Assembly (NCBI GenBank): GCA_020633515.1
Contig: JACKDM010000012.1
Span: forward strand, 34,446 to 98,445
DNA from: Myxococcales bacterium
GTDB taxonomy: Bacteria; Myxococcota; Bradymonadia; UBA7976; UBA1532
Direction of reading: 5' to 3'
Length of the DNA: 64,000 nt
Below are positions 3,624-62,655 of the stretch, in pieces. Position numbers and translations under genes: made by a program. How positions within the stretch are numbered: position 1 is the first letter of the stretch; every line of letters begins with the position of its first letter. Under the pieces are notes generated by a model. The model saw only the letters and a list, made by a program, of their open reading frames with translations. It ran no database searches and was not told the DNA's origin.

Positions 3624-4349
3624 TCAGCGGCCGGGGAGGAGCGCGGGCCAGTCGGTGTCGGGGTGGAGGGTGAGTTCGAAGGCGGGCACGGCCTCGGCGA
3701 GGTCGCAGGCGGCGGCGAAGGCGGCTTCGCGGGCGGGGTCGAAGTAGAGGGCGGTGGATTCGACGAGGCGGGCGGCGGCGGCGTCGGGGTTGATGGGGCG
3801 GATGGCGGGGGGGCCGTGGCGGAGGAGGAGGAGGCCGGCGATGGGGGCGGAGCCGGCGTCGAGGGGGCGGGTTCGGCCGGTGGACCACCAGGGGGTGCCG
3901 TGGGCGCGCCAGCCGTGGGCGTCGGGGCGGGCGGCGACGCGCTCGTCGGAGAGGGCGCGGTGGTGGGGGATGGCGCGGATGGCGGTGCTCTTGCCGGCGC
4001 CGGAGGGGCCGGGGAGGAGCCAGGCGCGGTCGTCGATGACGGCGGCGGCGGCGTGGAGGAGGAGGCCGTCGGGGAGCGCGGCGGCGAGGGCGAGCTCGAG
4101 GAGCGCGGGGAGGGCGTGGCCGTCGTGGCAGGCGTGGGCGCGGTCGGCGGTGGCGGCGAAGGTGAGGTCGTGGCGGCGGTGGGTGAGCGGGCCGGGGGGC
4201 GGGCCGGGGGCGGCGAGGGTGGTGTCGAGGGTGAGGGTGAAGTCGGGCTCGGCGTGGGGCACGAGGAACGGGCCGAGGCCGCGGGACCAGTCGTCGACGC
4301 CGGGGCCGCGCAGGCGCACCACGCCGCCGGCGAGGTGGATGTCGACCAA
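3624..4349 (-). CDS. HPr kinase-like P-loop protein next to a RiPP precursor
   Basis: This 241-residue protein has the C-terminal catalytic fold of HPr kinase/phosphorylase without the usual N-terminal domain. Walker A is GPSGAGKST at residues 114-122. It is followed by LSDE (133-136), where HPr kinases carry a conserved acidic pair, and by the HGTPWW strand. Enzymes of this reduced type occur in RiPP clusters, and some (the ThcoK/PadeK group) phosphorylate the C-terminal Ser of lasso peptides. The TTG start is one base after the stop of the 54-residue precursor, so the two genes are almost certainly co-translated. That precursor ends in Ser, which makes it an attractive substrate; this is inference. 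No HPr (PtsH) gene is in the window. Confidence 0.75.
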   Translation of the reverse strand: MVDIHLAGGVVRLRGPGVDDWSRGLGPFLVPHAEPDFTLTLDTTLAAPGPPPGPLTHRRHDLTFAATADRAHACHDGHALPALLELALAAALPDGLLLHAAAAVIDDRAWLLPGPSGAGKSTAIRAIPHHRALSDERVAARPDAHGWRAHGTPWWSTGRTRPLDAGSAPIAGLLLLRHGPPAIRPINPDAAAARLVESTALYFDPAREAAFAAACDLAEAVPAFELTLHPDTDWPALLPGR

Positions 4350-4350
4350 G

Positions 4351-4515
4351 CTACGATTGCATCGTGCAGTTGCCGACCGGGAAGCCGGCGGTGTTCTTGA
4401 CGCCGGCGCAGGCGAGGGCGGTGCGTTCGAAGGCGAGCGAGCGGATGAAGCCGGGCTTCTCGTAGGGGCGCTTCTCGCGCCGGGGCGGGTCGGGGGGCGG
4501 CGTGGGCTCGTTCAT
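4351..4515 (-). CDS. RiPP-like precursor peptide, 54 aa
   Basis: The small ORF has an AGGAG ribosome site 7-8 bases before its ATG and sits 20 bp after the giant lipoprotein gene and 1 bp before the HPr-kinase-like gene. Its layout is that of a leader-core peptide. Residues 1-17 form a Pro/Arg-rich charged start. The segment YEKPGFIRSLAFERTA (18-33) looks like a recognition leader of the Y-x-x-P type. The tail from about residue 34 is small and neutral, with Cys36 and Cys50, several Thr and Gly residues, and a C-terminal Ser54. There is no Asp or Glu after residue 30, so a lasso macrolactam is unlikely. Cysteine thioethers made by a radical SAM enzyme plus tail phosphorylation are possible. 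No signal peptide is present. Confidence 0.7.
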   Translation of the reverse strand: MNEPTPPPDPPRREKRPYEKPGFIRSLAFERTALACAGVKNTAGFPVGNCTMQS

Positions 4516-4535: not shown

Positions 4536-7500
4536 TCAACGATACACGACCCAGGTCATCTCGCCAGCGATGAGGACGAGCGCGGCGAGATCGGCGCGGC
4601 CGTCGCCGTCGAAGTCGCCGGCGCCGGCGACGCCGAGCTTGCGGCGGGCGGGGCGGTCGAGGCGGACGTGGGCGAGGCGGGGCGAGACCTGGGCGCCGAC
4701 GCCGAAGCGGCCGAGGCCGTCGTTGTAGAAGACCGATGCTTCGGTGACGGCGGGGTCGCCGTGGGTGGCGACGAGGTCGATGGCGCCGTCGCCGTCGATG
4801 TCGCCGGCGAGGTCGAAGACGCGGCCGAACTGGGCGGGGGTGCGGCCGAAGCAGTCGAGGGGGGTGAGGTCGGCGGAGAAGACGACGAGGCGTTTGTTGG
4901 CGCGGTTGCCGACGACGAGGTCGGGGCGGAGGTCGCCGTCGAGGTCGGCGCCGCCGGCGAGGGCGCTGCCGAAGGTGGCGCCGGGCTGGGGGCAGGGGTC
5001 GGTGAGGCGGACGGTGCGGGGGTCTCGGGGGTCGTAGGTGGCGGCGTCGGCGAAGCCGCCGGCGAAGACGAAGACGGCGTTGATGTCGGGGCCGGCGCTG
5101 AGCGCGAGCTCGGCGAAGCCGTCGCCGTCCTGGTCGCCGAGGCCGGCGGCGTAGACGGCGGCGGGGCCGAGGGGGAGGGTGAGGAGCGCGACGGCCGGGC
5201 CGCGGTCGGCGGGGGCGGGGCCGACGGTGACGGCGGCGGGGAGCGGGGGCCAGTCGCGGCGGCCGGCGACGACGAAGGCGGTGGTCTCGCCGGCGAGGCC
5301 GCCGCCGACGAGGAGGTCGTCGTGGCCGGGGTCGCCGAGCGCGGTGGCGTCGCCGACGCCGGCGAGGGCGTTGGTGAAGCGGCCGCCGACGCTGTGGATG
5401 AGCGCGTCGGGGGTGGCGAGCGCGGCGCGGTCGCAGGGGGCCCGGGGGCAGCCGAAGTAGAGCGCGATGGCGGCGCCGGTGAAGCCTTCGCGGTAGCCCT
5501 GCACGGCGAGGTCGGGGGCGCCGTCGCCGTTGAGGTCGCCGGCGGCGGCGGCGGCGACGCCGAAGAAGGCGTCGGTCATGCCGGGGGCGAGCGCGAGGGG
5601 GCGGGTCTCGGGCGCGGGGCCGCCGAAGACGAGCGCGGCGGCGGTGGCGGTGGCGGATTGGGTGGCGGCGACGACGAGGTCGTCGTGGCCGTCGGCGTCG
5701 AGGTCGCCGAGGCCGATGACGGGGGCGGTGGTGTTGATGAGCTCGCCGGCTTCCCAGGCGCCGCCGCGGGCGGGGAGGGTGCCTTGGTCGAGGGTGAGGC
5801 GGAGGTCGACCTCGAGGGTGGTGAGCGGGCCGAGGCGGCCGGCGTCGTCGCGGGCGCGGATCGCGAGGTGGTGGAGGCGGTCGAGCGCGAGGCCGTCTTG
5901 CAGGGTGGGGCCGGGGCCGCGGATGACGAGCGCTTCGGGGGCGCCGGGGGGGGCGGCGGCGGGGAGCACGAGCTCGGTGGCGGCGGCGGCGATCCAGTCG
6001 GCTTCGGCGGCGAAGGGGGCGGCGGCGCTGCGGATGACGTAGGCGGCGACGGGGCCGCCGGCGAGGTCGTCGGCGGGGGCGGGGAAGCGGAGGACGACCT
6101 CGGTGGCGCGGGGGTCGGTGATCTCGGCGGCGGCGGTGACGGGGCCGGGGGCGTCGGGGTCGGCGTCGAGGGCGCGGGTGGCGCAGGCGCGGTGGCCGGC
6201 GAGGTCGGTGACGCAGGCTTGGAGCCGGTGGGGGCCGGGGGTGAGGGTGAGCTCGACGGTGAGGGTGGGGCCGGGCGCGGGGCGGGGGTCGAGTGAGACG
6301 CCGTCGAGGGTGAGGGTGACCTCGCGGGGGCTGTCGATGGTGGCCTCGGTGAGGGCGAGGGTGACGGCGAGCTGCTGCCCGGGGAGGTCGGGGCGGTCGT
6401 CGGTGAGGATGAGCGCGGGGTCGGCCTCGGGGCGGGTGATGGTGAGGGTGGGGCTCTCGAGGTCGACGGTGACGGCGACGGCGGGTGAGTCGAGGGTGGT
6501 GCCGCGGACGGGGCCGACGCGGAGCGTGAGGGTCTGGGGGCCGCGGGTGAGGGTGACGTCGTCGAAGCGGAGGGCGCCGTCGGGGGCGACGGTGGCTTCG
6601 GCGATGGGCGCGCCGTCGCGGAGGAGGGAGGCAGGAGCGCCGGCGCAGTCGAGGTCGGTGAGGTCGACGGCGCCGGTGACGGGCAGGGTGAGGGTGTCGC
6701 CGCGGACGAGGCCGGCGTCTTCGGCGAGGGCGCCGAGGGGGTTGATGACGCGGCTCGGGCAGCCGGGCAGGTCGAGGGTGAGCGCGAGGGGGGCGGAGGT
6801 GCCTTCGTTGCCGCAGGCGTCGACGGCGCGGGCGATGAGCGTGCGCGGGCCGCCGGCGAGGGTGAGGCGGGCGGGGAGCGGGCCGTCGTCGAAGACGAGC
6901 GCCGGGGGCTCGGTGCGGAGCGGGGCGGGCGGGTCCCGAGCTTCGAGGGTGACCGCGAGGCCGGGCTCGGGCACGGCGAGCTCGAGCGCGAGGTCGAGCT
7001 GGAAGCCGGGCGCGGGGTCGGCGTCGTCGGCGGGGCCGAGGACGGCGCCGTCGTCGAGGCCGAGGATGCGGGGCTCCGGGGCGAGGGTGTCGACGGTGAG
7101 GGCGCGGTCGAGGGTGGCGGCGTTGCCGCAGGCGTCGGCGACGGTGACCTGGAGCGCGTGGGGCCCTTCGGGCAGGTCGAGCGGGAGGCGGAGCGCGTCG
7201 GCGCCCTGGGCTTCGGCGATGACGGCGCCGTCGAGGCGCACGGTCGCGGTGACGGGCTCGCCGGGCTCGGCGCCGGCGGTGACGGCGAGCTCGACGCGGG
7301 CGCCGGGGGCGGCGGGGTCGAGGTCGTCGGCGGCGGCGAGGCAGCTCCCGTCGGCGAGGCCGAGGAGCGCGGGCGCGGGCACGCCGGTGTCGACGCGCAC
7401 GGTCGCGGTGAGCGCGGGCGGCTCGGGCAGCGGGTTGCCGGCGGCGTCCTGGCCGCGGAGCGCGAGGCGGTGCAGCCCGGGGGGCAGGGTGACGGTGGCC

Positions 7501-10016
7501 TCGCCGGCGCCGGCGAGCGCGCCGCCGAGGTCGAGGCCGGCGTCGGTGCGGAGGCGGATCGGGGTCTCGGGCGCGAGGCCCTCGGTGGTCCAGGTGACGC
7601 GGATCCGGGCGCTCTGGCTGGCCTCGGCGGCGTTCTGGCGCTCGGCGCGGTTGACGCAGCCGTCGCCGTTGTTGTCGTCGGCGATGGCGAGCGCGGTGAC
7701 GGCGGGGGGGGAGCAGTCGGCGAGGAGCGCGACGGGGGGCGAGACGAGCGCGCCGGCGTCGACGGTGAGCACGAGCTCGTGCGCGGCGTCGGCGAGGTCG
7801 ACGGGGCAGCGCAGCGTGGCGCCGGCGCCGACGACGCCGGTGACGACGCAGCGTGGCGCGGCGCAGGCGGGGTCGGCGGCGGGGCAGACGCGGATGACGG
7901 CGTCGGGGCCGGGGCCGTCGACGCGGGCGTCGAGCTCGAGCTGGCAGCCGGGCGCCGCGGGGTCCGCGTCGAGCGCGGCGCCGATCGTGGGCGGGGCGAT
8001 GAGGGTGGCGGTGACGGCGTCGATCGCGGCGGTGCGCTCGGCGCGGGCCTCGGCGCAGGCGTCGGCGACGGTGGCGGTGAGGCGCAGCGGGGTGAGCGGG
8101 GCGGTGAGCGGGGGGAGCGCGACGACGGGGCAGTCGCCGGGCGGGACGGGGACTTCGAAGGGGCCGGCGAGGGGCGGGTCGAGCGCGACGCGCAGGGTGG
8201 CGCCCGAAGCGCCGCAGACCTCGATCCGGGGCGTGAGCTGGTAGCCGGGGGTCGCGGGGTCGGCGTCGGTGATCGGGTCTTCGGGCGCGAGGACGCGGAG
8301 CGCGGGCGGGCTGCGGTCGATGGTGAGCGCGACGCTCGCGGGCGTGACCTCGATCGGGACCTCGCCGAAGACGGTGCCCTCGACGGTGAGGGTCCAGGCG
8401 CCCTCGGCGAGCCCGGCGATCTCGACGCTCTGCGTGTCGCCGTCGCCCGCGAGCGGCGCTTGTACCACCTCGCCGCCATCGGCCGGGGTCAGCACCGCGA
8501 CGAGCGCCGGGTCGTTGCCGGCGAGCGACGCCCCGCGCCCGGCGACGCGCAGCGGAAGGGCGCTCGTGCAGCCGGGCGCGGGCGCGGCGAGGACGAGGCG
8601 CGGGCGGTCGAAGAAGAGGCGGTAGCGCTCCGCCTCGGCCGTCGGCGGGTTGGGCGACGGCGCGGCGGTGGGCAGGCAGGTGATCTCGCCGGTCTCGTGT
8701 GCTTCGAAGGTGACGATGACCGGCGCCTCGCCGAGCGCGCTGCGCAGCGGGGCGTCGCCGGGTCCGACGGCGCGGTCGGTGGGCGGGGCGCCGGCGGGGC
8801 CGCAGGCGACCGAGACGCGATAGTCGACGTCGGGGCGGGGATCGGCGGCGGCGACGGTGAACGCGACCTGCACGCCGGGGCGCGCCGGGTCGAGGTCGAG
8901 CGCGGCGGTGAGCAGACCGGCGGGCGGCGCGACGATGCGCAGCGCGGGCGTGACCGCGTCGAGCCGCAGCGCGTGGCGGGCGGCGGGGCTCGCGGTGCCG
9001 CAGGCGTCGGTGGCGCTCGCGCCGAGCTCGCCCGCCCACGCCTCGCCGAGCGGGACCGACACCTCGATCACGAAGCGCCCGTCGTCGTCGACCCGCGCGG
9101 TGGCCGGCGCGGCGGGCAGCGGCGGCGCGTAGGTCAGCGCCACCATCGCCCCGGGCTCGAGGCCGTCGCTGTCGCCGGTGATCGTCCAGTAGGCGCGCCC
9201 CTCGGCGACCACGGCGGGGGTGAGGCCGAGCACGGTCGCCCGGCCGGCGTTGAGGTCGAGCCGCACGTCGGGCGCGGCGGCGCGGGCGCGGTAGCGGAGC
9301 GGGCCGAGCGCGGCGGGCCAGGCGCCGGTCGCGCGCGCGGTGACGTGCACCTCGGTGTCGCCGTCGGCGAGGGTCACCGGGACGCGGGCGAGGCCGCCTT
9401 CGACCGCGGCGCTGCGGGGCACGCCGCCGGCGACGACCTCGACCCGCGCACAGTCGGTCTGCGCGACGAGCTCGACCTGCACCCCCGGCCGCGCCGGGTC
9501 GAGGTCGGCGTCCGGTCCGGCGTCGCAGGCGCCCCCGCCGGGGAGCGGCTCGACGGCGAGCGCGCAGGTGCGCACCCGCACCGTGACGTCGATCTCGTCG
9601 GCGACGAGGCGCCCGCCGCTCTCGATCTCGGCGGTGAGCCGCACGGCGCCGTCGGCGAGCGCGGGCAGGGTCAGCACCGCGACCGCGCGCCCGTCGACGA
9701 GCGGCGCCGCGCTCGCCCGGTCGCCGACGCGGAAGACCACCCGCCCGTCATCGGCGCCCTCGGCCTCGGCGCGCGCCTCGATCTGGATGCCGGTCGCGAG
9801 CTCGCCGTCGAGGTCGGCCTCGCCGCCGATCACCGCGCCGGCGAGCGGCTCGGTGAAGCGCACCGCGCCGAGCGGGGCGGCGTCGGGGCTCGCGTCGATC
9901 GCCGCGTCGACCGCGGCGTCGGCGCCCGCGTCGACCGCCGCCGGCTTGTCGCCCTCGTCGCACGCCGCCGCCCACACCGCGCACCCGAGCACCCACACCG
10001 TCCCGCGCCACTTCAT
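4536..10016 (-). CDS. giant surface lipoprotein: Ig-like array plus FG-GAP propeller
   Basis: The protein is about 1826 aa. The N-terminus has a signal sequence with a lipobox-like VWAAAC (Cys19), then an Asp/Ala-rich linker (AAVDAGADAAVDAAIDA). Residues about 60-1350 contain roughly ten beta-sandwich units. Each is introduced by a variant of D-x-D-P-x-x-P-G-x-Q (for example DLDPARPGVQV, DADPATPGYQL, DDADPAPGFQL) and ends with paired cysteines such as DACGN. The C-terminal 450 residues hold about seven FG-GAP/VCBS calcium motifs (GDLDADGHDD, GDLNGDGAPD, GDQDGDGFAE, GADLDGDLRPD, GDIDGDGAID, GDFDGDGRAD), enough for one seven-bladed integrin-type propeller. The likely role is adhesion or surface display. 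It is the first gene of a three-gene minus-strand run with the RiPP-like precursor and the HPr-kinase-like gene. Confidence 0.85.
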   Translation of the reverse strand: MKWRGTVWVLGCAVWAAACDEGDKPAAVDAGADAAVDAAIDASPDAAPLGAVRFTEPLAGAVIGGEADLDGELATGIQIEARAEAEGADDGRVVFRVGDRASAAPLVDGRAVAVLTLPALADGAVRLTAEIESGGRLVADEIDVTVRVRTCALAVEPLPGGGACDAGPDADLDPARPGVQVELVAQTDCARVEVVAGGVPRSAAVEGGLARVPVTLADGDTEVHVTARATGAWPAALGPLRYRARAAAPDVRLDLNAGRATVLGLTPAVVAEGRAYWTITGDSDGLEPGAMVALTYAPPLPAAPATARVDDDGRFVIEVSVPLGEAWAGELGASATDACGTASPAARHALRLDAVTPALRIVAPPAGLLTAALDLDPARPGVQVAFTVAAADPRPDVDYRVSVACGPAGAPPTDRAVGPGDAPLRSALGEAPVIVTFEAHETGEITCLPTAAPSPNPPTAEAERYRLFFDRPRLVLAAPAPGCTSALPLRVAGRGASLAGNDPALVAVLTPADGGEVVQAPLAGDGDTQSVEIAGLAEGAWTLTVEGTVFGEVPIEVTPASVALTIDRSPPALRVLAPEDPITDADPATPGYQLTPRIEVCGASGATLRVALDPPLAGPFEVPVPPGDCPVVALPPLTAPLTPLRLTATVADACAEARAERTAAIDAVTATLIAPPTIGAALDADPAAPGCQLELDARVDGPGPDAVIRVCPAADPACAAPRCVVTGVVGAGATLRCPVDLADAAHELVLTVDAGALVSPPVALLADCSPPAVTALAIADDNNGDGCVNRAERQNAAEASQSARIRVTWTTEGLAPETPIRLRTDAGLDLGGALAGAGEATVTLPPGLHRLALRGQDAAGNPLPEPPALTATVRVDTGVPAPALLGLADGSCLAAADDLDPAAPGARVELAVTAGAEPGEPVTATVRLDGAVIAEAQGADALRLPLDLPEGPHALQVTVADACGNAATLDRALTVDTLAPEPRILGLDDGAVLGPADDADPAPGFQLDLALELAVPEPGLAVTLEARDPPAPLRTEPPALVFDDGPLPARLTLAGGPRTLIARAVDACGNEGTSAPLALTLDLPGCPSRVINPLGALAEDAGLVRGDTLTLPVTGAVDLTDLDCAGAPASLLRDGAPIAEATVAPDGALRFDDVTLTRGPQTLTLRVGPVRGTTLDSPAVAVTVDLESPTLTITRPEADPALILTDDRPDLPGQQLAVTLALTEATIDSPREVTLTLDGVSLDPRPAPGPTLTVELTLTPGPHRLQACVTDLAGHRACATRALDADPDAPGPVTAAAEITDPRATEVVLRFPAPADDLAGGPVAAYVIRSAAAPFAAEADWIAAAATELVLPAAAPPGAPEALVIRGPGPTLQDGLALDRLHHLAIRARDDAGRLGPLTTLEVDLRLTLDQGTLPARGGAWEAGELINTTAPVIGLGDLDADGHDDLVVAATQSATATAAALVFGGPAPETRPLALAPGMTDAFFGVAAAAAGDLNGDGAPDLAVQGYREGFTGAAIALYFGCPRAPCDRAALATPDALIHSVGGRFTNALAGVGDATALGDPGHDDLLVGGGLAGETTAFVVAGRRDWPPLPAAVTVGPAPADRGPAVALLTLPLGPAAVYAAGLGDQDGDGFAELALSAGPDINAVFVFAGGFADAATYDPRDPRTVRLTDPCPQPGATFGSALAGGADLDGDLRPDLVVGNRANKRLVVFSADLTPLDCFGRTPAQFGRVFDLAGDIDGDGAIDLVATHGDPAVTEASVFYNDGLGRFGVGAQVSPRLAHVRLDRPARRKLGVAGAGDFDGDGRADLAALVLIAGEMTWVVYR

Positions 10017-17740: not shown

Positions 17741-20700
17741 TTACAGCGGCGTCAGCGTGATCCGCACCGTCACCGCGCCCGCGCGGCCCTGCGCGTAGCC
17801 ATCGACGAAGAGCGTGTAGGCGCCCGGGTCGAGGTCGGTCTCGATCAACGAGAGGCTGCCTTCGCCGCCGTCGTCGTCGCAGGCGATCTCGTCGGCGGCC
17901 AACTCGCAGCCGCGGCGCAGGTGCAGCACCGTGTCGAACGCCGCCGCCGTCGTCTCTGCGCGCAGCCGCGAGCGCACCGCGACCGGGATCGCGATCGGCA
18001 GGTCGGGCGAGCGCGCCTGCCCGCCGCAGAGCGCCTGGTAGTGGTCGAGGGCGAGGGTCGTGTCGAGCATCAGCGTCGCGTCGCGCAGATCGGGCACGAC
18101 GAGCGCCTGCTCGGCGACGCAGGCGAGGTCCTCGGCGCCCTGACCGGCGAAGAGGCACTCGGGATCGGCCGGGTAGTCGGTGCGCCCGTCGCCGTCGTCG
18201 TCGAGCCCGTTGCTGCACGCCGGCCGCACGGCGGGATCGGCCTCGTCGGTGTCGGCGGCGTTGACGCAGCCCGGATCGGCCGCGTCGATCCGCCCGTCGC
18301 GGTCGTCGTCGAGGCCGTTGTTGCACTGCGCCGCCGCGAACGCGAGCTGCGCCTCGTAGCCGCAGGCCCCCGACGTGAGCTGCACCCGGATGTAGACCGT
18401 GCGCGCCCGGTCGATGCGCCAGGTGTAGCGCCCGTTGAGCCCCGGCTGACCGACGATCGAGACCCCGTTCTCGTCGAGCAGGAACGGCTGCACGAAGCCG
18501 CTGCCGTAACACAGCCCCTGGGTGACGGTGACCACGAACTCGCCCTGCGAGGGCAGGTCGACGCGGTAGTAGTCGGCGTCGTTGAACTCGTTGCCGCACG
18601 CCCCGGCGCGGATGAGCGCGTTCGAGGCGACGAGGCGGGCGGTCTGGCGGGTCTCGTTGGGTTCGTAGGCGTCGTTGCACGGCACGCAGTCGGCGCGGTA
18701 CTGCCCGGCGGGGCACACCGTCATCGCGCGGCGGGTCACGGTCAGGTCGTAGTCGAAGCTCGCCCCGTCCCCGAACGCGCGCACCACCGCCCAGGTCTCG
18801 ACGCCGGCGCGGGCGACGAAGCGCGCCGTCTGGTTGCCGAGCCCGCCGCTCGACCCCGAGCCGCCATTGCCATCGGCCCGCATCCCGCCGTTGACGAGCA
18901 GCGGGATGTCGCCGTCGGCCGGCGGCGCGTAGTCGACGCGCACGGTGTACTCGCTGTCGACCGGCGGCAGGAACGAGAACCAGTCCTGGTCCTGCCGCTC
19001 GACGCACAGGATCTGCTCGCTGTAGACGCCCGGCTCGATCCGCGCCGCGTCGGCCTGCACGTCGTTGCGCTCGAACGGGTCGAGGCACGCCTCGCAGACC
19101 AGATCACCCGGCGCGCACGCCTGCTCGACGCACGCGCCCCACGCCCGCCACTGCCCCTGCGCACAGCTCCGCTCGCGGAAGGCGAGCGCCGCCCCGGCGC
19201 ACTGCTCGCTCTGCACCGCGCCGTCGACGCAGACGTCGAAGTCGACGCACTGCTCCCACGCCCCGAACATGCCGCCCACGCAGCGCCGCAGCGTCAGCCC
19301 GCGCCCGTTGAGCCCGCACGCGCCCTCCTCCACCGCGCCGTCGACGCACTGCCGCATGTCGCTGCACGGCCCCCACGCGCCCCACCGCCCCTGCGCGCAG
19401 CTCCGCCGCTCCTCGCCCTGCCCCGTCGGCCCGCAGGCCCGGCCCTCGCTCGCGCCGTCGCGGCACACGTCGGGATCGGCGCAGACCCCATAAGCGCCCC
19501 AGCGGCCGTTCTGGCAGCTCCGGGTGCGGGTGCCGCGCCCGTTGAGCCCGCAGACGCCGTTCTCGCTCGCCCCGTCGCGGCAGACGTCGGGGTCCTGACA
19601 GCCGCCCCACGCGCCCCACGCGCCCAGCGTACAGCTCCGCGTCTCGCGCCCGCGCCCGTTGAGCCCGCACGCGCGCTCCTCGACCGCCGCGTCGCGGCAG
19701 ACGTCCTCGTCGAGGCAGGGCCCGAACTGCCCGTAGCGCCCGAGCACGCAGGTGCGGATCCGCTCCCCGCGCCCGTTCTGCCCGCAGACCTGGGTGTCGC
19801 GGCCGCCGTCGACGCACTCGTCGGGATCCTCGCAGACGCTCCACGCGCCGAAGCGCCCCGCCATGCAGGCCCGCGCCTGCCGGCCGCGCCCGTTCTGCCC
19901 GCAGGCCCGCTCCTCGGTCGCGCCGTCCACGCAGTCGTCGACGTCGACGCACTCGCCGAACGCGCCCCACTGCCCCTCGGCGCACGACCGCTCCTCCTCG
20001 CCGCGCAGGTTCACCCCGCACGCCCGCGCCTCGACGCTGCCGTCGGTGCAGGTGTCGGGGTCGTCGCAGACGCCAAAGCCCGCCCAGCGCCCCTCGACGC
20101 AGCTCTGCGCCTGCACGCCCCGACCGTTGAGCCCGCACGCGCCCTCGTCTTCCGCGCCGTCGAGGCACTCGTCGGGATCGGTGCACGGCTGCCACTCGCC
20201 GAACTGCCCCTCGGCGCACGTCCGCTCCTCGAAGCCGCGCCCGTTGAGCCCGCACGCGCGCTCCTCGCGGCTCTCGTCGACGCAGACGTCGGGGTCGTCA
20301 CACGGCGCGAACGGCCCCCACGCGCCGGCCGTGCAGCCGCGGAGCTGGAGGCCGCGGTCGTTCTGCCCGCAGCGCATCTGCTCCATCGAGTCGTCGATAC
20401 ATTCATCGGGATCGGCGCACTCGCCGAAGGCGCCATAGCGGCCGTCGACGCAGGTGCGCGCTTCGAAGCCGCGCCGGTTGAGCCCGCACGGCCGCTGCTC
20501 GATCGAGCCGTCCTCGCAGGGCGGGCCCTCGCCCTCGCCTTCCCCTTCGCCCTCGCCTTCCCCTTCGCCCTCGCCCTCGGCGCCCGCGTCGCTGTCGGCG
20601 CAGCGACAGGCGCCATAACCGTCGTCGCCGCACACCCGCTCGCCCCGCGTCCCATCGGCGCAGGCGCAGTCGTCGACCTCACCCGGCTCGCAGTCTCCGC

Positions 20701-20779
20701 CCCCGCCCCCGCCGGCGGGCACGCAGCCCACCGTCACCACCACGCTCAGGCCCAGCCACCGCACCCACGCGCTCGCCAT
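17741..20779 (-). CDS. secreted lipoprotein with 12 tandem cysteine repeats and MopE-like motifs
   Basis: The protein is 1012 aa. A signal sequence ends in TVGC (Cys19, probable lipidation). A Cys-rich start is followed by nine Glu-Gly pairs (residues 68-85). Residues about 86-545 contain 12 repeats of roughly 38 residues, of the form C-x-D-G-x-x-E-x-x-A-C-G-x-N-x-R-G...C...G-x-W/F-G...C-x-D-P-D. Two beta-sandwich regions follow (FERNDVQADAARIEPG and YEPNETRQTARLV, typical pre-peptidase-C-like openings). Between the second and the C-terminal beta domain lie two MopE-type Asp motifs, CNNGLDDDRDGRIDAADPGC and CSNGLDDDGDGRTDYPADPEC. It is likely an extracellular calcium-stabilised, disulphide-rich surface protein. 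I see no enzymatic site. Confidence 0.8.
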   Translation of the reverse strand: MASAWVRWLGLSVVVTVGCVPAGGGGGGDCEPGEVDDCACADGTRGERVCGDDGYGACRCADSDAGAEGEGEGEGEGEGEGEGEGPPCEDGSIEQRPCGLNRRGFEARTCVDGRYGAFGECADPDECIDDSMEQMRCGQNDRGLQLRGCTAGAWGPFAPCDDPDVCVDESREERACGLNGRGFEERTCAEGQFGEWQPCTDPDECLDGAEDEGACGLNGRGVQAQSCVEGRWAGFGVCDDPDTCTDGSVEARACGVNLRGEEERSCAEGQWGAFGECVDVDDCVDGATEERACGQNGRGRQARACMAGRFGAWSVCEDPDECVDGGRDTQVCGQNGRGERIRTCVLGRYGQFGPCLDEDVCRDAAVEERACGLNGRGRETRSCTLGAWGAWGGCQDPDVCRDGASENGVCGLNGRGTRTRSCQNGRWGAYGVCADPDVCRDGASEGRACGPTGQGEERRSCAQGRWGAWGPCSDMRQCVDGAVEEGACGLNGRGLTLRRCVGGMFGAWEQCVDFDVCVDGAVQSEQCAGAALAFRERSCAQGQWRAWGACVEQACAPGDLVCEACLDPFERNDVQADAARIEPGVYSEQILCVERQDQDWFSFLPPVDSEYTVRVDYAPPADGDIPLLVNGGMRADGNGGSGSSGGLGNQTARFVARAGVETWAVVRAFGDGASFDYDLTVTRRAMTVCPAGQYRADCVPCNDAYEPNETRQTARLVASNALIRAGACGNEFNDADYYRVDLPSQGEFVVTVTQGLCYGSGFVQPFLLDENGVSIVGQPGLNGRYTWRIDRARTVYIRVQLTSGACGYEAQLAFAAAQCNNGLDDDRDGRIDAADPGCVNAADTDEADPAVRPACSNGLDDDGDGRTDYPADPECLFAGQGAEDLACVAEQALVVPDLRDATLMLDTTLALDHYQALCGGQARSPDLPIAIPVAVRSRLRAETTAAAFDTVLHLRRGCELAADEIACDDDGGEGSLSLIETDLDPGAYTLFVDGYAQGRAGAVTVRITLTPL
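19130..20524 (-). repeat. 12 coding tandem repeats of about 38 codons
   Basis: This is the DNA encoding the 12 cysteine repeats of the lipoprotein. Each unit is close to 114 bp and keeps the codons for C-G-x-N-G-R-G and W-G. Copies differ at many positions, so the array is old rather than freshly expanded. The last copy has lost the N-G-R-G core (CAGAALAF). Confidence 0.8.
20525..20578 (-). repeat. Glu-Gly microsatellite in the lipoprotein gene
   Basis: Nine consecutive Glu-Gly codon pairs appear on the plus strand as a 6-bp repeat alternating ccctcg and ccttcg-like units. It makes a flexible acidic spacer between the lipid anchor and the cysteine repeats. Repeats of this sort can change copy number between strains. 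Confidence 0.75.
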
Positions 20780-25423: not shown

Positions 25424-26287
25424 ATGTCCATGATCCGACTCATCGCCGTCATCGGCCTCGTCACCCTGCCGCACCTCGGCCACGCCGGCGACCCCGCCGA
25501 CGCCGACGACGAGAGCCCCTGTCGCGGCCGGCACAAGCGCGTCGAGCTGGTGCTGACCGCCGACGAGTTCCGCATCCCCGCCTACGACGCCCGCCGTGGC
25601 CTCGTCCTCGTCCGCCCCGAGACCGATCTGCTGCCCGGCGTGGAGCGCGCGTTCTCGGTGCGGCTGCGCATGGCCTCGCCCGAGGTGCTGATGCCGCTCG
25701 GGCCGACGGGGCTGTTCTTCGGGCTGGAGTCGGGGACCCATGAGCTGGAGATGGTGGTCGAGGCCGAGCCGTTCGGCCCGGAGTGCGACGCCGAGGCGCG
25801 GCCGGCGTGTGATGAGCTCAAGGTGCGCGCGGTCCACCTCAAGCGGGGCGAGATGGTGATCTCGTCGCGGCGGCTCGACGAGCCGATCGGGCCGGTGACG
25901 CGCTTCGAGACGCGGGTCTTCGGGCGGCTGAACGTCGAGCGGGGCCAGCTCGACGCGGCGGCGCTCGACACGCGGGCGCGGGCGATCGGCGAGGCGTGCC
26001 TGCGGCGGGCGCTGGCGCGGACGCGCATGATCCAGGGCGCGCTGTCGGTGCAGCTCGGCGCCGACGTGGTCGGGCAGCCCGAGCCGCCGGTGGTGGTGGT
26101 CGACGGGCTCGTCGACCCGGAGCTGACCCGGTGCCTGATCGATCGCTTCGGCCGGGACGCGGCGGTCGCCGAGCTGCTGCCGCCGGCCGCGCGGGCCTAC
26201 CTGACGCTCTACTTCCGCGGCGAGGCGGTGGTCTCGACGCCCGATCCGGCCTCGGCGGAGCTGGCGATCGAGCGCAGCCACCCGTAG
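25424..26287 (+). CDS. exported protein, AgmX/PglI C-terminal-like domain suspected
   Basis: The protein is 287 aa with a clear signal peptide (MSMIRLIAVIGLVTLPHLGHAG, cleavage after GHA). Mature residues 30-180 are beta-rich with two Cys pairs. The last third (IGEACLRRALARTRMIQGALSVQLGADVV, then DGLVDPELTRCLIDRFGR) resembles the AgmX/PglI C-terminal domain, which pairs a helix containing Cys with a TonB-like strand and a second Cys. Myxobacteria have many such proteins; their functions are mostly unknown. The 3' end overlaps the convergent signal-peptidase-like gene by 79 bp. Confidence 0.55.
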   Translation: MSMIRLIAVIGLVTLPHLGHAGDPADADDESPCRGRHKRVELVLTADEFRIPAYDARRGLVLVRPETDLLPGVERAFSVRLRMASPEVLMPLGPTGLFFGLESGTHELEMVVEAEPFGPECDAEARPACDELKVRAVHLKRGEMVISSRRLDEPIGPVTRFETRVFGRLNVERGQLDAAALDTRARAIGEACLRRALARTRMIQGALSVQLGADVVGQPEPPVVVVDGLVDPELTRCLIDRFGRDAAVAELLPPAARAYLTLYFRGEAVVSTPDPASAELAIERSHP

Positions 26288-26898
26288 CGGCCGCCCTCGC
26301 CGACCGCGCCGAGCACGACGCCGGCGACCTCGTCGGCCGGGACGACGCCGGCGAGCTCGTCGAGCGGGCAGGTGCGGCGGTTGTCGCAGATCACGAAGAG
26401 CTGGCCCGCGCCGACCTCCATCTCCGGGACATCGAGCCGCCAGGGGCGCGCGGCGCCGTCGTGGTCGCCGAGGATCATGTGGGCGCGGCCGTCGGGGAGG
26501 GCTTCGCTCGCCTGTCGCTGCCCGATCGCGCGCGCGCCGCGGCCGGCGTAGAGCCCGGTCTCGTGGGTGGTGAGCGGCGCGCCGTCGATGAGGAGCACGC
26601 CGTCTTCGGCGCCGATCCGCTCGCCGGGGAGCCCGATGACCCGGCGCAGCACCGCGCGGCCGCCGGCTTCGAGGAGCACGACGTCCCCGCGCTCGGGATC
26701 GGCGAGCGAGGCGACGAGCAGCACCGCGCTGTCGGCGGCGGCGGGCGCCATCGTGTCGCCGCGGACGCGGACGAGTTCGAAGAAGACGAGGCGGACGAGC
26801 GCGAGCGCGATGATCGCGAGGGTGACGAGCACGACCGCCGCCCGCCGGATCGGGAGCCGCCGGCGGGGCGCGGCGCCGATGACGAGCCGTTCGCTCAT
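26209..26898 (-). CDS. signal peptidase I homologue lacking the catalytic dyad
   Basis: This 229-residue protein has the S26A layout: a membrane helix (residues 18-40), box B at GDTMAP (47-52), box D at LRRVIGLPGE (84-93), and box E at CDNRRTCPLDELAGVV. The catalytic Ser of box B (S-M-x-P) is Thr49, and the general-base Lys of box D (K-R-x-x-G-L-P-G) is Arg85. Box E is also altered (GDN to CDN, S-x-D to C-x-L-D). The DNA codes are ACG and CGC, so these are not ambiguities in translation. It is either inactive or a changed enzyme. It is the last gene of the fatty-acid/riboflavin array. Confidence 0.75.
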   Translation of the reverse strand: MSERLVIGAAPRRRLPIRRAAVVLVTLAIIALALVRLVFFELVRVRGDTMAPAAADSAVLLVASLADPERGDVVLLEAGGRAVLRRVIGLPGERIGAEDGVLLIDGAPLTTHETGLYAGRGARAIGQRQASEALPDGRAHMILGDHDGAARPWRLDVPEMEVGAGQLFVICDNRRTCPLDELAGVVPADEVAGVVLGAVGEGGRYGWLRSIASSAEAGSGVETTASPRK

Positions 26899-26911
26899 GA
26901 CCGATACTTGA

Positions 26912-27301
26912 TCATCGCGCTGCGGCGTCGCCGTAGAGCACGACCGCGCCGGCGAAGGCGCGGCGCAGCTCGTCGGGCACGAAGCGGAAGTCTTCGGGGC
27001 ACAGCCCCGGTCGCTCGGCGCCCATCGCGCGGGCGAGGCGGGCGAGGTCGGCGGGGGTGGCGGCGCCGAGGCGCCAGAGCACGAGGCGGGGGACGGGGAA
27101 GAAGTCGGGCGCGGGCCACATGAGCGGGCCGTCGTGGGGGATCTCGCCGCGGGCGACGAGCGCGGAGAGGCGGCCGCCGAGGCGCCAGTCGACGCGGCCG
27201 GTGAGGCCGGTGAGCGGGCGGTCGTCGAGGCGGACGGCGAGCATGAGCGGGTCGCAGGGCGCGGCGCGGAGGCCGTCGATGGTCGCCGCTGCGTCGATCA
27301 C
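26912..27301 (-). CDS. stand-alone M17 leucyl aminopeptidase N-domain-like protein
   Basis: This 129-residue protein contains RPLTGLTGRVDWRLGGRLSAL, a pattern typical of the N-terminal (non-catalytic) domain of M17 leucyl aminopeptidases, followed by helices and strands consistent with that macrodomain-like fold. The peptidase domain is absent, so it is not a protease by itself. Its ATG overlaps the nusB stop (ATGA), and 13 bp separate it from the signal-peptidase-like gene. Function unknown; a binding role is possible. Confidence 0.5.
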   Translation of the reverse strand: MIDAAATIDGLRAAPCDPLMLAVRLDDRPLTGLTGRVDWRLGGRLSALVARGEIPHDGPLMWPAPDFFPVPRLVLWRLGAATPADLARLARAMGAERPGLCPEDFRFVPDELRRAFAGAVVLYGDAAAR

Positions 27302-49140: not shown

Positions 49141-49159
49141 CGCCCCCGGAGGTGCCCCG

Positions 49160-49761
49160 ATCGGCCAGCCCGACCCGAGCGACAAGCGCGAGCGCATCCT
49201 CGACGCGGCGATCCAGGTCTTCGCCGAGCGTGGCTTCTACCACGCGCGGGTCAGCGAGGTCGCGGCGGCGGCGGGCGTGGCGGGGGGCACGATCTACAAC
49301 TACTTCAAGAGCAAGGACGACCTGCTCATCAGCCTCTTCGAAGACCGGATGGACGCGATCCTGCAAGGCTCTGATCCGAGCTCTCAGGGCTTTGGACCGT
49401 CGCCGACAAGCTGCGCCGCTTCATCGAGCTGCACCTCGAGATGGTCGCCGGCGACCCGGCGCTCGCCGAGGTGCTCACCGTCGAGCTGCGGCAGTCGTCG
49501 AAGTTCATGCGCGAGTACAAGGCGCTCAAGTTCGGCGAGTACCTGCTCGTCATCGAAGACATCATCGAGCGCGGCCGCGCCCGCGGTGAGTTCCGCGACG
49601 ACGTCGACGCCCGCATCCTCAAGCGGGTGATCTTCGGCGCGCTCGACGAGGTGAGCCTGTTCTGGGTCGACGCCCGACGTAACGACAACCTACAGCCCTA
49701 CGCCCTCGACCGGGCCGCCGAGCAGATCTGGCGGTGGCCGTCGCTGGGGCTTCCTGTCTGA
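49160..49761 (+). pseudogene. TetR family regulator, frameshifted and without a normal start
   Basis: The N-terminal HTH is complete in one frame ([48 protein letters not shown], given here as a single domain covering about 49184-49330). The ligand domain continues in another frame ([25 protein letters not shown] and onward to 49761). The frame change is near 49365-49395. No ATG, GTG or TTG opens the HTH frame. An ATC at 49160 lies 9-10 bases after GGAGG and would give the expected N-terminus (then [11 protein letters not shown]). Regulators of this group usually sit beside the fatty-acid or ETF genes they control, and etfBA follows. Confidence 0.65.
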
Positions 49762-50537
49762 TCGGCAGGGAAGAGGCGCCCCGGAAGATCCTGGTCTCGG
49801 CCAAGCGGGTCACCGACCCGTACTCGAAGATCACCGTTGCCAAGGACGGCAGCCTCAACACCGAGGATGTCGACTACAAGATGAACCCGTTCTGCGAGAT
49901 CGCCGTGGAAGAGGCGCTCCGCATCGCCGAGAACGCCGACGAGGCCGAGGTGATCGTCGTCGGCATCGGCGACGAAGAGGCGACCAAGGAGATCCGCACC
50001 GCGCTCGCGATGGGCGCCGATCGGGGCATCCTCGTCGAGCACGACGAGGCGAAGCTCGACTCGGATCTGACCGCGCGCATCTTCGTGAAGATCATCGACG
50101 ACGTCGAACCCGACCTCGTCCTGCTCGGCAAGCAGGCGGTCGACGGCGACAGCAGCCAGGTCGCGCAGCTCATCGCCGAGTACAAGGGCTGGCCGCAGGC
50201 GTGCTTCGCCTACAAGGTCGAGGTCAACGGCGCCGGCGACGGCGCGCGGGTGCAGCGTGAGGTCGACGGCGGCGTCGAGACCGTCGAGCTGTCGTTCCCC
50301 GCCGTGATCACCACCGATCTGCGCCTCAACGAGCCGCGCTACGCGAGCCTGCCCGGCATCATGAAGGCCAAGCGCAAGCCGCTCGAAGAGATGGATCTCG
50401 ACGACCTCGACCTCGAAGACGACCTCAAGGTCGAGGTGCTCGGGTTCGAGATGCCGCCCGAGCGCAAGGCCGGCGTCAAGGTCTCGTCGGTCGACGAGCT
50501 GATCCAGAAGCTGCGCACCGAAGCCAAGGTCCTCTGA
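49734..50537 (+). CDS. etfB: electron transfer flavoprotein beta subunit
   Basis: EtfB is the AMP-binding half of the electron carrier between acyl-CoA dehydrogenases and ETF-quinone oxidoreductase. Seen here are [16 protein letters not shown] at the N-terminus, [30 protein letters not shown] and the C-terminal [23 protein letters not shown] recognition loop. The conserved protein normally begins right at M-K-I-L-V, but here the codon before K is CGG. A GTG at 49734 in frame gives an 18-residue extension that overlaps the TetR tail. The natural start may therefore be damaged. Confidence 0.88.
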
Positions 50538-50554
50538 GGGTAGGGAGCAGAGCC

Positions 50555-51520
50555 ATGAGCAAGATCATCGTCCTCGCCGAGCAGCAGAACGGCAAGCTCG
50601 CCAACGCCACCCTCCACGCCATCGGGGCCGCCCGTCAGCTCGTCGCGGCGGTCGGCGGCGGCTTCGACGTCGCCGTCGCCGGCGCCGGGGTGCGCGGCGT
50701 CGCCGAGCAGCCCACCGGCTACGGCCGCCGGAGGTCTTCCTCGCCGAAGCACGCGGCTGCCCAGAACTACACCGCAGGCCCTGGCGCGGGCGTGGCACGC
50801 AGCAGCGAAGACGGCGGGCGCAGGCATCGTGGTCGCAGCGGCGACGAGCGTCGCAGCGAAGGACTGCCTGCCCCGCGTCGCCAGCAGCTCCGGCGCCGGT
50901 ACGGCGAGCGCGTGGGTCCGCATCGGCATGGAGGGCGGCAAGCCGCCTACACCCGCCCGATGTGGGCGGGCAGCGTGCTCGGGCGGGTGCGCATCAACAC
51001 CGACATCCAGGTGTTGAGCGTGCGCCCGACCGAGTTCGAAAAGGCCGAGCCGACCGGCGGCCAGAGCGCGATCGAGGCGATCGACGCCGGCGTCGACACG
51101 AAGTCGCTGCGCATGAAGTACGTCGGCCTCGACGCCGCCGAGTCGAACCGCCCGGCGCTCACCGACGCCGACGTGGTCGTCTCGGGTGGTCGTGGCCTCA
51201 AGGAGCCGAGCAACTTCAAGCTCGTCGAGAAGCTCGCCGACCTGCTCGGCGGCGCCGTCGGCGCGACCCGCGCGGTCGTCGACGCCGGCTGGGTCCCCAA
51301 CGACTGGCAGGTCGGCCAGACCGGCAAGGTCGTCGCGCCCAAGCTCTACATCGCCGTCGGCATCAGCGGGGCCATCCAGCACCTCGCCGGCATGAAGGGC
51401 AGCAAGACCATCGTCGCGATCAACAAGGACCCCGACGCGCCGATCTTCCAGGTCGCCGACTACGGGCTCGTCGCCGATCTCTTCGACGTCGTGCTGACGG
51501 CCGCGAGCTCGAAGCGTGTT
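50555..51520 (+). pseudogene. etfA: electron transfer flavoprotein alpha subunit, frameshifted
   Basis: The ATG at 50555 and the first 50 residues read well ([26 protein letters not shown]). Between about 50715 and 50950 the sequence moves through other frames; pieces such as [11 protein letters not shown] and [16 protein letters not shown] (50829 on) are recognisable. From 50960 the frame is right again: [14 protein letters not shown], then the FAD-binding domain [26 protein letters not shown] and [30 protein letters not shown]. The C-terminus is disturbed after FDVV (about 51490), where the gene should end. Core FAD motifs are intact, so assembly indels are the likely cause. Confidence 0.8.
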
Positions 51521-60340: not shown

Positions 60341-60793
60341 ATGCTCATCCGCCTCATCCTCATCGGGCTGATCGTCGCCGCCGTGGTCTACGGCGTGCGC
60401 ACCGCGCTCGGCCCCAAGCGCCTGCGGGTGCCGTTGATCTGGCGCAGCGTCGCCGGCCGCCACCCCGAGGTCTCCCGCGCCGTCGCGCTGCGCACCGCGA
60501 TCGCGCGGCTGTTGCTCGACGCGCCCGAGGGCCGCTTCGGCTCGGTGATGGGCGAGGTCGACGCGCTCGTCGCGACCATCGTGCAGCTCGCCCGCGCCCG
60601 CGAGGAGAAGGGGCTGCCGGTCGACCCCGACGTCGGGCGCACGCTCGACGACCTCGACGCGCTGCGCGGGCAGATCGAGGCCGAGACCGCGGCCGAGGGC
60701 GCGGCGGCGGTCGACGAGCTGCGGGCGCGGCTCGCGGTGCGCTCGGAGTCGCTGCGCGAGACGCTCGCCGCGCGGCGCGAGCTGCAGGACTGA
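60341..60793 (+). CDS. small membrane-anchored hypothetical protein, 150 aa
   Basis: One N-terminal membrane helix (LIRLILIGLIVAAVVYGV) is followed by a basic loop and two long Ala/Glu/Arg-rich helices (about 45-150), probably a coiled coil. Unknown family. A TAGAGT box sits 9 bases before the ATG, so the transcript may be nearly leaderless. The 231 bp that follow, up to the radical SAM gene, are C-rich and contain no ORF I would support. Confidence 0.55.
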   Translation: MLIRLILIGLIVAAVVYGVRTALGPKRLRVPLIWRSVAGRHPEVSRAVALRTAIARLLLDAPEGRFGSVMGEVDALVATIVQLARAREEKGLPVDPDVGRTLDDLDALRGQIEAETAAEGAAAVDELRARLAVRSESLRETLAARRELQD

Positions 60794-61024: not shown

Positions 61025-62251
61025 ATGACCGAGCCCATCGACCACGACGGCGTCAGCGGCTTCCTCCGCGAAGCGATGGCCGAGGCCATCCCGCTCTCGA
61101 TCCACTGGGACCTCACCTGGCGCTGCGACCACCGCTGCGTGCACTGCTACCTCACCGAGCGCCGCCAGCCCGAGCTCACCCTCGCCGAGTGCGAAGCCAT
61201 CCTCGACCAGCTCGCCGCCGCCGGCACGCTCATGCTCCTCATCAGCGGCGGCGACCCCTTCCTCCGCCCCGACGCCGTCGACTTCATCCGCGCCGCCCGC
61301 GCCCGCACCTTCGACGTCCGCGTCAACAGCCACGGCAACCACATCGACGACCGCGTCGCCGACGCGCTCGCCGAGGCCGGCGTCAGCCGCGTCAGCCTCT
61401 CCGTCTACAGCGCGCTCGCCGCCGACCACGACGCCGTCACCCTCATCCCCGGCAGCCACGACAAGACCCTCGCCGCCGCCCGCCGCCTCGTCGATCGCGG
61501 CGTGCCCGTCAACTTCAAGACGCCCGTCATGGCCCACAACCGCCAGAGCTACCCCACCGTCGGCCCCCTCGCCCACGCCCTCGGCGCCACCTGGGAGCTC
61601 GACGCCCACATCGTGCCCGACGACCAGAGCGACTTCGGCCTCTGCAGCATCGGCGTGCACCCCACCGACCGCATGCTCGCCACCCTCACCGACCTCAACC
61701 GCAACCGCCAGCACGTCGTGCCCGTCGCCGAGCTGGCCGACGCCCCCTCCACCGCCCGCACCTGCTCCGCCGGCACCGCCAGCGGCTTCATCTCCCCCGA
61801 CGGCCGCCTCTTCCCCTGCATCAACTGGCGCGACGAGATCGGCAGCCTCCGCCGCACCCCCTTCGCCGCGCTCTGGGCCGACTCACCCGCCGTCCGCCGC
61901 CAGCGCCAGATCACCCGCCAGAGCTACCTCCGCGACTGCGACGGCTGCGCCTTCCACGGCAAATGCGGCTACTGCCCCGGCCTCTCCCACGCCGAGACCG
62001 GCGACCCCGGCCGCCGATCCGCCTACGTCTGCGAACGCACCCACCTCACCATGGCCGCCATCGAGCACATGCACCGCCTCAACCAGACCGGCGCTTCTGT
62101 GCCCGCCCCCGACAGCGACGCCGCGCTCACCCTCTTCGACCGCCCGAGCTTCGCCGAGCGCCAATGGGCCGCCCGCCAGAGCGGCCTCACCCGCGCCGCC
62201 GACCGCCTCCCCCTCGTCACCATCACCGAACCCCGCCCCCCTCAACCATGA
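61025..62251 (+). CDS. radical SAM/SPASM peptide-modifying enzyme
   Basis: The 408-residue protein belongs to the SPASM group that modifies ribosomal peptides. The SAM cluster motif is Cys34-x3-Cys38-x2-Cys41 in WDLTWRCDHRCVHCYL, and SGGDPFLRP is the GGE-like SAM-binding loop. The C-terminal SPASM region has C-x12-G-x4-C (TCSAG...GRLFPC), then C-x2-C-x5-C-x2-C (CDGCAFHGKCGYC) and a final Cys (YVCERT), seven ligands for two auxiliary clusters. There is no N-terminal RRE or PqqD domain, so peptide recognition needs another protein. The ATGA overlap couples it to an S26-like peptidase. No precursor is adjacent; the likely one is at 4.4 kb (inference). Confidence 0.85.
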   Translation: MTEPIDHDGVSGFLREAMAEAIPLSIHWDLTWRCDHRCVHCYLTERRQPELTLAECEAILDQLAAAGTLMLLISGGDPFLRPDAVDFIRAARARTFDVRVNSHGNHIDDRVADALAEAGVSRVSLSVYSALAADHDAVTLIPGSHDKTLAAARRLVDRGVPVNFKTPVMAHNRQSYPTVGPLAHALGATWELDAHIVPDDQSDFGLCSIGVHPTDRMLATLTDLNRNRQHVVPVAELADAPSTARTCSAGTASGFISPDGRLFPCINWRDEIGSLRRTPFAALWADSPAVRRQRQITRQSYLRDCDGCAFHGKCGYCPGLSHAETGDPGRRSAYVCERTHLTMAAIEHMHRLNQTGASVPAPDSDAALTLFDRPSFAERQWAARQSGLTRAADRLPLVTITEPRPPQP

Positions 62252-62655
62252 CCCACGCCGCCGTCGACCTCGCCCGCGAGCTCCTCAACCGCGGCCAGAC
62301 CATCCGCTTCATCGCCCGCGGCCAGTCCATGTGGCCCGCCATCCTCGACGGCGACCGCCTCACCCTCGCCCCCCGCCACGGCCCCGTCCGCCTCGGCGAG
62401 ATCGTCTTCCTCCCCACCGACGACTTCGGCGTCGCCCACCGCTGCGTCGCCCGCCTCGGACCCTGGTGCTGCCTCAAAGGCGACGCCGCCGTCGCCATCG
62501 ACGGCTGGTACCGCCCCGAGACCTTCACCGCCCGCGTCACCCGCATCGACCGCGACGGCCGCCCCATCCCCATCCGCGCCACCCTCGGCGCCGTCCTCGC
62601 GTCATGGACCCAAAGCGGCCTCCGGGCCCTGGCACGCCGGGTGCGCCCCCGCTGA
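62248..62655 (+). CDS. S24/S26 peptidase-like protein with intact Ser-Lys pair
   Basis: This 135-residue protein has no membrane helix. GQSMWPAI carries the catalytic Ser27, GDRLTLAP is the second strand, and CCLKGDA holds the base Lys77 after AHRCV. This small S24/S26 form is often encoded next to radical SAM, PqqD or HPr-kinase-like genes in RiPP clusters and is a candidate leader protease. Its start overlaps the radical SAM stop. In contrast to the 26.2-26.9 kb signal peptidase homologue, its active-site residues are all present. Confidence 0.75.
   Translation: MTHAAVDLARELLNRGQTIRFIARGQSMWPAILDGDRLTLAPRHGPVRLGEIVFLPTDDFGVAHRCVARLGPWCCLKGDAAVAIDGWYRPETFTARVTRIDRDGRPIPIRATLGAVLASWTQSGLRALARRVRPR

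Follow-up and report, generated by a model that had tools for sequence, protein, structure and literature searches.

Gene content of the window

The window, meaning the whole stretch of 64,000 nucleotides that was analysed, contained a small open reading frame on the minus strand (4515-4351) encoding the 54-residue peptide MNEPTPPPDPPRREKRPYEKPGFIRSLAFERTALACAGVKNTAGFPVGNCTMQS, with Cys36, Cys50 and Ser54 as the final residue. Its TAG stop codon (4353-4351) was separated by one base from the TTG start codon of a P-loop gene (4349). An earlier reading of this DNA, made from the letters only (the sequence-only reading), had described the same arrangement and residues. A Shine-Dalgarno-like AGGAG was located 6 bases 5' of the peptide ATG. 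The genes for a giant protein, the peptide and the kinase-like protein stood together on the minus strand (10016-3624), and a radical SAM and peptidase gene pair was found 57 kb from the peptide on the plus strand (61025-62655). The main features were:

3624..4349, minus strand: kinase-like P-loop protein of the HprK/PEPCK type, 241 aa; conserved residues His99, Lys120 (Walker A), Asp135 and Glu136
4351..4515, minus strand: precursor peptide gene, 54 aa; YEKP leader; presumed core TALACAGVKNTAGFPVGNCTMQS, with the cleavage site placed by analogy with linear polyphosphorylated peptides (LPP)
4536..10016, minus strand: giant lipoprotein (FG-GAP/Ig-like) of 1826 aa with a lipobox-like WAAAC; its gene immediately precedes that of the peptide
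61025..62251, plus strand: radical SAM/SPASM protein of 408 aa; scores over cut-off for PF04055 and PF13186; in the peptide operon of relatives
62248..62655, plus strand: SipW/ER-type signal-peptidase-like protein, 135 aa; SM.P, HR and GD motifs; presumed leader peptidase

PF13517, PF01839 and PF19077 scored over their cut-offs in the giant protein. A rough pattern for a lipoprotein signal was matched by 21 of the 25 giant frames judged complete, and one of the four frames without it was a fragment of a split gene (L062). The radical SAM protein of the window matched the enzyme of the L001 operon at 77%. The CxxxCxxC and SPASM Cys set of peptide maturases was present (PF04055, PF13186): across the 33 rows of alignment A4, the three Cys of CxxxCxxC and six more were invariant, and a seventh was kept in at least 90%. 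PF00717 matched the signal-peptidase-like protein below the cut-off (E 7.6e-4). The SM.P, HR and GD motifs were kept in 28 to 30 of 30 aligned peptidase rows, one of which is another protein of the window. We take this Ser-Met, His-Arg and Gly-Asp set to be of the ER/SipW type.

The contigs of loci L001 and L002 carried the full operon, comprising electron-transfer flavoprotein genes (assigned by eye; for one of them, an ETF domain was found in its window copy), a PqqD-like gene, the giant FG-GAP gene, the peptide, the kinase, the radical SAM/SPASM gene and the signal-peptidase-like gene. In relatives, the PqqD-like protein was PF05402, and the signal-peptidase-like gene came after the radical SAM gene. 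The flavoprotein genes, which lie 5' of PqqD in L001, were at 49785-51493 in the window with PqqD missing there, and no PqqD was found within the window. An RNase E/G gene (PF10150) came after the radical SAM and peptidase pair; judged by eye, five other loci also had a relative of this gene close to the cluster. Since the giant-peptide-kinase, flavoprotein and radical SAM-peptidase groups occupied separate positions, an ancestral cluster seems to have been split into three, and this three-way split may stem from misassembly of the contig. A candidate frameshift in the etfA of the window was discarded, as tblastn gave a single frame (71%).

A conserved family of precursor peptides

The 54-residue peptide had no Pfam or NCBIfam match at E ≤ 1. 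A protein search returned 14 relatives, none with an E value above 2e-15, in which the final 19 residues were nearly invariant and the N-terminus was variable (alignment A1). The nearest relatives (P0001-P0019) had the string C[AS]GVKNTAGFPVGNC[TS]MQS in common, the exception being one Ala-to-Ser change in P0019, and varied in their N-terminal ~15 residues. A near-invariant C-terminal part combined with a variable N-terminus is typical of a precursor with a strongly selected product, and the proposal in the sequence-only reading of a RiPP-like precursor was supported. Over the last 39 codons, dN/dS (NG86) was 0.154/0.765 for the window versus L001 and 0.169/0.441 for the window versus L002, indicating purifying selection on the peptide from three sequences only. 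The small gene at 4515-4351 is a real gene. Automatic callers had been expected to miss it; this agreed with the absence of the window peptide from the 14 relatives matched, with the window kinase present in the protein collection (P0127), but the peptides of relatives were annotated (e.g. KC620_00260, adjoining kinase KC620_00265). The viral collection yielded no relative, and the plasmid collection searched with the kinase-peptide DNA yielded one short Streptomyces match over 15% of the query.

A profile built from the 14 relatives was scored against a capped set of 7974 candidates; at least 352 proteins matched at E ≤ 10, of which the best 120 were considered. Two family members (P0005, P0039) were named Myxococcales at the source, which makes Myxococcota the likely home of the family. 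At E ≤ 1e-3, the peptide profile was positive in 42 of 377 genomes from the phylum of G001, with one match each. It had no match in 299 genomes sharing a phylum with the Schaedlerella genome G378, a set without a positive control. Locus L003 (Schaedlerella) was rejected as a member: its match covered 11 residues only and its genome had no family match.

Gene neighbourhood and co-inheritance

The open frames around the peptide were scanned in 43 loci (the 42 positive genomes and the window). The kinase was found in 39, the radical SAM gene in 34, and PqqD and the peptidase in 29 each. Some absences reflected contig ends (e.g. L037, L055, L070). L072, which is counted in the 43, spanned 19.5 kb with none of the partner genes, and it lacked the usual motif. 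By a loose frame-distance rule, the kinase came directly after the peptide in 28 of the 39 loci and elsewhere in the locus in 11, and the kinase linkage proposed earlier was thus upheld. The giant was present in 29 loci, each time ending no more than ~200 bases from the peptide frame (as tabulated for 26 loci and derived from coordinates for L002, L044 and the window), and it stayed beside the peptide even where the kinase and radical SAM genes lay on its far side. The peptide-kinase pair of the sequence-only reading is therefore real but incomplete, as the radical SAM/SPASM protein, PqqD, the signal-peptidase-like protein and the giant lipoprotein also belong to the set.

Co-inheritance was assessed in 57 genomes from the class of G001, 16 of which had the peptide. 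Radical SAM matches (E ≤ 1e-60) occurred in all 16 peptide-positive genomes versus 4 of the 41 others, kinase matches (E ≤ 1e-30) in 16 of 16 versus 5 of 41, and giant matches (E ≤ 1e-40) in 13 of 16 versus 1 of 41 (Fisher p 8e-11, 4e-10 and 3e-9, respectively, values that ignore shared descent). In the other three peptide-positive genomes of the class, no giant was found at E ≤ 1e-40 although the enzymes were there. The giant was on a different contig from the peptide in G127, G170, G203 and G241.

In L034, L036 and L040 (genomes G068, G039 and G256), PqqD was located immediately 5' of the peptide gene, and the giant FG-GAP gene was absent from these genomes at E ≤ 1e-40. Such loci indicate that the biosynthetic set may exist without the giant.

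The kinase-like protein

The predicted structure of the kinase-like protein (pLDDT 94.4) had the HprK/PEPCK fold and the superfamily features of a P-loop fold, Walker A and a preceding His. PEPCK was the best structural match in both programs, with HprK/P next in the Foldseek list. A single-sequence search of the kinase against the PDB gave no match at E ≤ 1, and PF27840 was carried by 62 of 65 kinase homologues among the matches listed. His99, Lys120 and Asp135 were invariant in the 40 rows of alignment A7. Among the 39 locus kinases, all had the His and the Walker Lys and 32 had Asp at the next conserved site; the residues around this Asp differed among subgroups (DE, DD, DR). The lasso peptide kinases PadeK and ThcoK need a His-Lys-Asp-Asp motif (PMC9266682). 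With positions matched by inference, the final acidic residue of the window kinase was Glu136 and not Asp. In the kinase tree, the window joined L001 and L002 (99/97) within a 17-row clade (100/100), and the precursors of this clade ended in Ser or Ser-Gly.

The C-terminal residue

Ser was the last residue in 117 of the best 120 of the 352 family proteins (Thr in 2, Cys in 1); the profile came from Ser-ending sequences, so a slight bias toward Ser-ending matches is possible. Exactly two Cys, the residue that forms Cys-to-carbon thioethers in sactipeptides and ranthipeptides, were present in 101 of these 120. The tail from the last Cys to the end was variable (CTMQS, CRAVKKNS, CIGVPPKS, CPGGNPQSS), and given these differing lengths and sequences the terminal Ser is not part of a conserved block. 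At L018-L020 and L022, which are also numbered L046-L048 and L050, the profile match ended early and the terminal Ser was still present. In the class of G001, 14 of the 16 peptide-bearing genomes had a precursor ending in Ser and two had one ending in Ser-Gly.

Across the 43 genome peptides, Ser was the last residue in 32. When the 47 precursors read from the genomes and the window were considered (L072 excluded), 12 ended otherwise, and these adjoined the kinase, or PqqD and the giant. In three genomes of one order the precursor ended in CAEL, CDEL and CLET; further endings were MCA, VPC, IQL, TPV, KST and, in L097, GKGC. Four diverged precursors (L075, L078, L080, L081) came from the kinase-positive genomes of the class that the peptide profile had not matched. 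Their loci were reached through the enzymes, and the precursor was chosen as a weakly profile-matching frame adjoining the kinase. These four ended in G, S, Y and Y, with Ser thus in one of four. They had one Cys and a leader of the form YxxP/WxxP...FH and adjoined the kinase, with the giant in three of the four loci; their sequences suggest a second precursor type. The fifth extra locus, L079 (G228), had no candidate precursor. The homologue search proposed in the sequence-only reading thus found relatives that keep both the C-terminal Ser and the kinase linkage. The C-terminal Ser that it had emphasized predominates among the best relatives but is not universal across the family.

Comparison with known systems

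The closest published system is that of the LPP of Bacillota (PMC13381572). In this system, the SipW-type peptidase LppS cleaves after FET, the RRE is required in vitro, and LppK phosphorylates core Ser3; hardly any processed peptide is detected when the kinase is missing (PMC13381572). Both systems have a YxxP leader with FE(T) before the core, a discrete RRE, an HprK-like kinase and a SipW-type leader peptidase, and the LPP-type leader order was present here, with YEKP followed by FE[RT] conserved. The spacing from Y to F is 13 in the published LPP consensus and 11 here. The term radical SAM is absent from the LPP text (PMC13381572), whereas a radical SAM/SPASM enzyme belongs to the present set. 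LPP features include an NTP transferase, an MsbA-like transporter and a patchy, mobile distribution. The present family usually has two Cys, a C-terminal Ser, a giant FG-GAP lipoprotein and one copy per positive genome. The LPP acceptor is core Ser3 (FETxxS), and membership in LPP was rejected since position +3 is here occupied by Leu34, which does not vary across the 72 rows of A2, and not by Ser. The functions of LPP and of paeninodins are stated as unknown in the same source (PMC13381572).

Paeninodin-type lasso peptides (PadeK/ThcoK) share with the present family an HprK-like kinase, a conserved C-terminal Ser, on which PadeK acts in the precursor (PMC9266682), and a related [Y/W]xxP leader motif. 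They differ in that the family studied here has a radical SAM enzyme instead of lasso enzymes, and no acidic core residue: Asp and Glu were absent after FER in the presumed core of the window peptide. PF13471 (B2-type peptidase) and PF00733 (Asn-synthase-type) had no match at the peptide locus in the 16 class genomes, several of whose peptide contigs are short. Elsewhere in these genomes, PF13471 matched in 11 and PF00733 in 16, the sole match on the same contig being PF13471 in G001, ~476 kb from the peptide. An ordinary lasso peptide was rejected on both grounds, as the sequence-only reading had concluded from the missing acidic residue.

A cassette of PqqD-like, radical SAM and kinase-similar proteins is already noted in NCBIfam as SynChlorMet (TIGR04248-04251), with ScmC, ScmD (PqqD-like) and the radical SAM proteins ScmE and ScmF; we call ScmC HprK-like by inference from its match to the kinase here. 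SynChlorMet differs in having two radical SAM models in the cassette. TIGR04249 (ScmC) scored 38.3 of 125 bits against the window kinase, and the SynChlorMet radical SAM models scored 64 and 55 of 400 bits against the radical SAM protein here. Membership in SynChlorMet was rejected on these scores, which are far below the cut-offs. The ScmC cut-off was passed in one of 356 genomes, the peptide-negative G062. At this locus (L096), the kinase and a signal-peptidase-like frame were present, with no radical SAM match of the peptide-operon family within 10 kb.

Phospeptin is comparable as a poly-phosphorylated linear RiPP from an uncultivated lineage, and its sole maturase is a phosphorylating domain of the lanthipeptide dehydratase type (PMC9259500). 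It differs from the present set in that the available part of that source mentions no radical SAM enzyme (PMC9259500). Within the literature searched, which covered few subscription papers, SynChlorMet was not mentioned and the matches listed gave no account of a system such as the one described here. Among these matches, three of the four components HprK, radical SAM, RRE and signal peptidase were named together in the LPP paper, which lacks radical SAM, and in a biphenomycin paper.

Proposed pathway and alternatives

That these genes are inherited together suggests that the peptide undergoes chemical modification, probably phosphorylation, and is of an as yet undescribed kind. From the genes we infer the following chemical steps and their order. 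The leader (KRPYEKP..FER) would be bound by the PqqD-type recognition domain through YxxP. The HprK-type kinase would phosphorylate the precursor, in the lineage of the window most likely at the C-terminal Ser54, and the radical SAM/SPASM enzyme would modify the core, probably at Cys36 and/or Cys50. The SipW/ER-type peptidase would then cleave after FER and free the core, which by analogy with LPP begins after FER31 and has ~23 residues. The giant FG-GAP lipoprotein may be the partner of the mature peptide, with the cell surface as the probable site of action; this role of the giant is suggested by gene order and co-inheritance. We consider this RiPP pathway, with a PqqD-bound leader, HprK-type phosphorylation, radical SAM modification, SipW/ER-type cleavage and the giant as partner, to be the probable one, with considerable room for error.

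The kinase might instead act inside the peptide, on a residue early in the core, the terminal Ser being kept for another purpose, for example docking or recognition by the radical SAM enzyme. LppK acting at Ser3 is a precedent (PMC13381572), and Ser or Thr occurred at position +5 after FE[RK] or FH in 9 (by script, with L070 mis-anchored) or 10 (by eye) of the 12 genome precursors without terminal Ser or Ser-Gly. By comparison, Cys occupied +5 in 110 of 113 anchored Ser-ending family proteins, in 30 of 35 such genome rows, and in 113 of 116 anchored family proteins overall, four others not being anchorable. This +5 pattern was noticed post hoc and is clumped by descent. In the window, however, +5 is Cys36 and +3 is Leu34, and by eye the terminal Ser was the only core hydroxyl kept throughout its class. 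The three family proteins without terminal Ser still had Cys at +5, which speaks against a strict acceptor switch, and L068 did likewise. An internal acceptor in place of Ser54 is thus unlikely for the peptide studied here, while the sequences suggest that the phospho-acceptor can move between sites across precursors.

It is also improbable that the HprK-like protein leaves the peptide unphosphorylated and serves as a nucleotide-dependent chaperone or has a different substrate, with the peptide being an ordinary radical SAM RiPP (thioether or carbon-carbon). That PEPCK and not HprK/P was the best structural match, and that the surroundings of the Asp vary by subgroup, would fit such a role, but the His, the Walker Lys and, in most cases, the Asp are conserved, and PadeK, ThcoK, SyanK and LppK all phosphorylate precursors (PMC9266682, PMC13381572). 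Although spurious frames are common in high G+C sequence, a chance frame beside the kinase was ruled out by the homologues, and the conserved family, the Shine-Dalgarno sequence, the recurrent gene order and the purifying selection leave it practically no probability.

One copy per positive genome and an almost invariant core in near relatives point to a function in the cell rather than in warfare. A tentative extension, which we regard as possible though doubtful, is that the peptides form a RiPP family that is new to science and probably belongs to Myxococcota. A phosphorylated and crosslinked, non-antibiotic peptide would then serve as a single-copy, ligand- or cofactor-like part of the giant, its acceptor moving by lineage between the C-terminus and the core start. 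Few kinase-modified RiPPs are known, and here this type of kinase is tied to radical chemistry and a fixed protein partner. The system offers a testable acceptor site (Ser54) and a testable partner (the lipoprotein), and the lineages with and without the terminal Ser provide a natural comparison.

Other features of the window

A second signal-peptidase-like frame (26212-27297, minus strand; RGDTMAP ... LRRVIGLPGE) was observed, with Thr and Arg apparently standing in place of the catalytic Ser and Lys usual in such enzymes; judging by these residues, its product is perhaps a non-catalytic relative of signal peptidases. In a frame that appeared TetR-like by eye (49145-49752, plus strand), the L001 relative matched in two frames, with the change at ~49363-49375, suggesting an assembly error or decay. 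The 150-aa frame 5' of the radical SAM gene (60341-60793, plus strand) had no Pfam match at E ≤ 0.01. A 1012-aa frame (17741-20779, minus strand) contained about a dozen CGLNGRG...C..G.WG.W-type repeats, and its product is possibly a secreted repeat protein.
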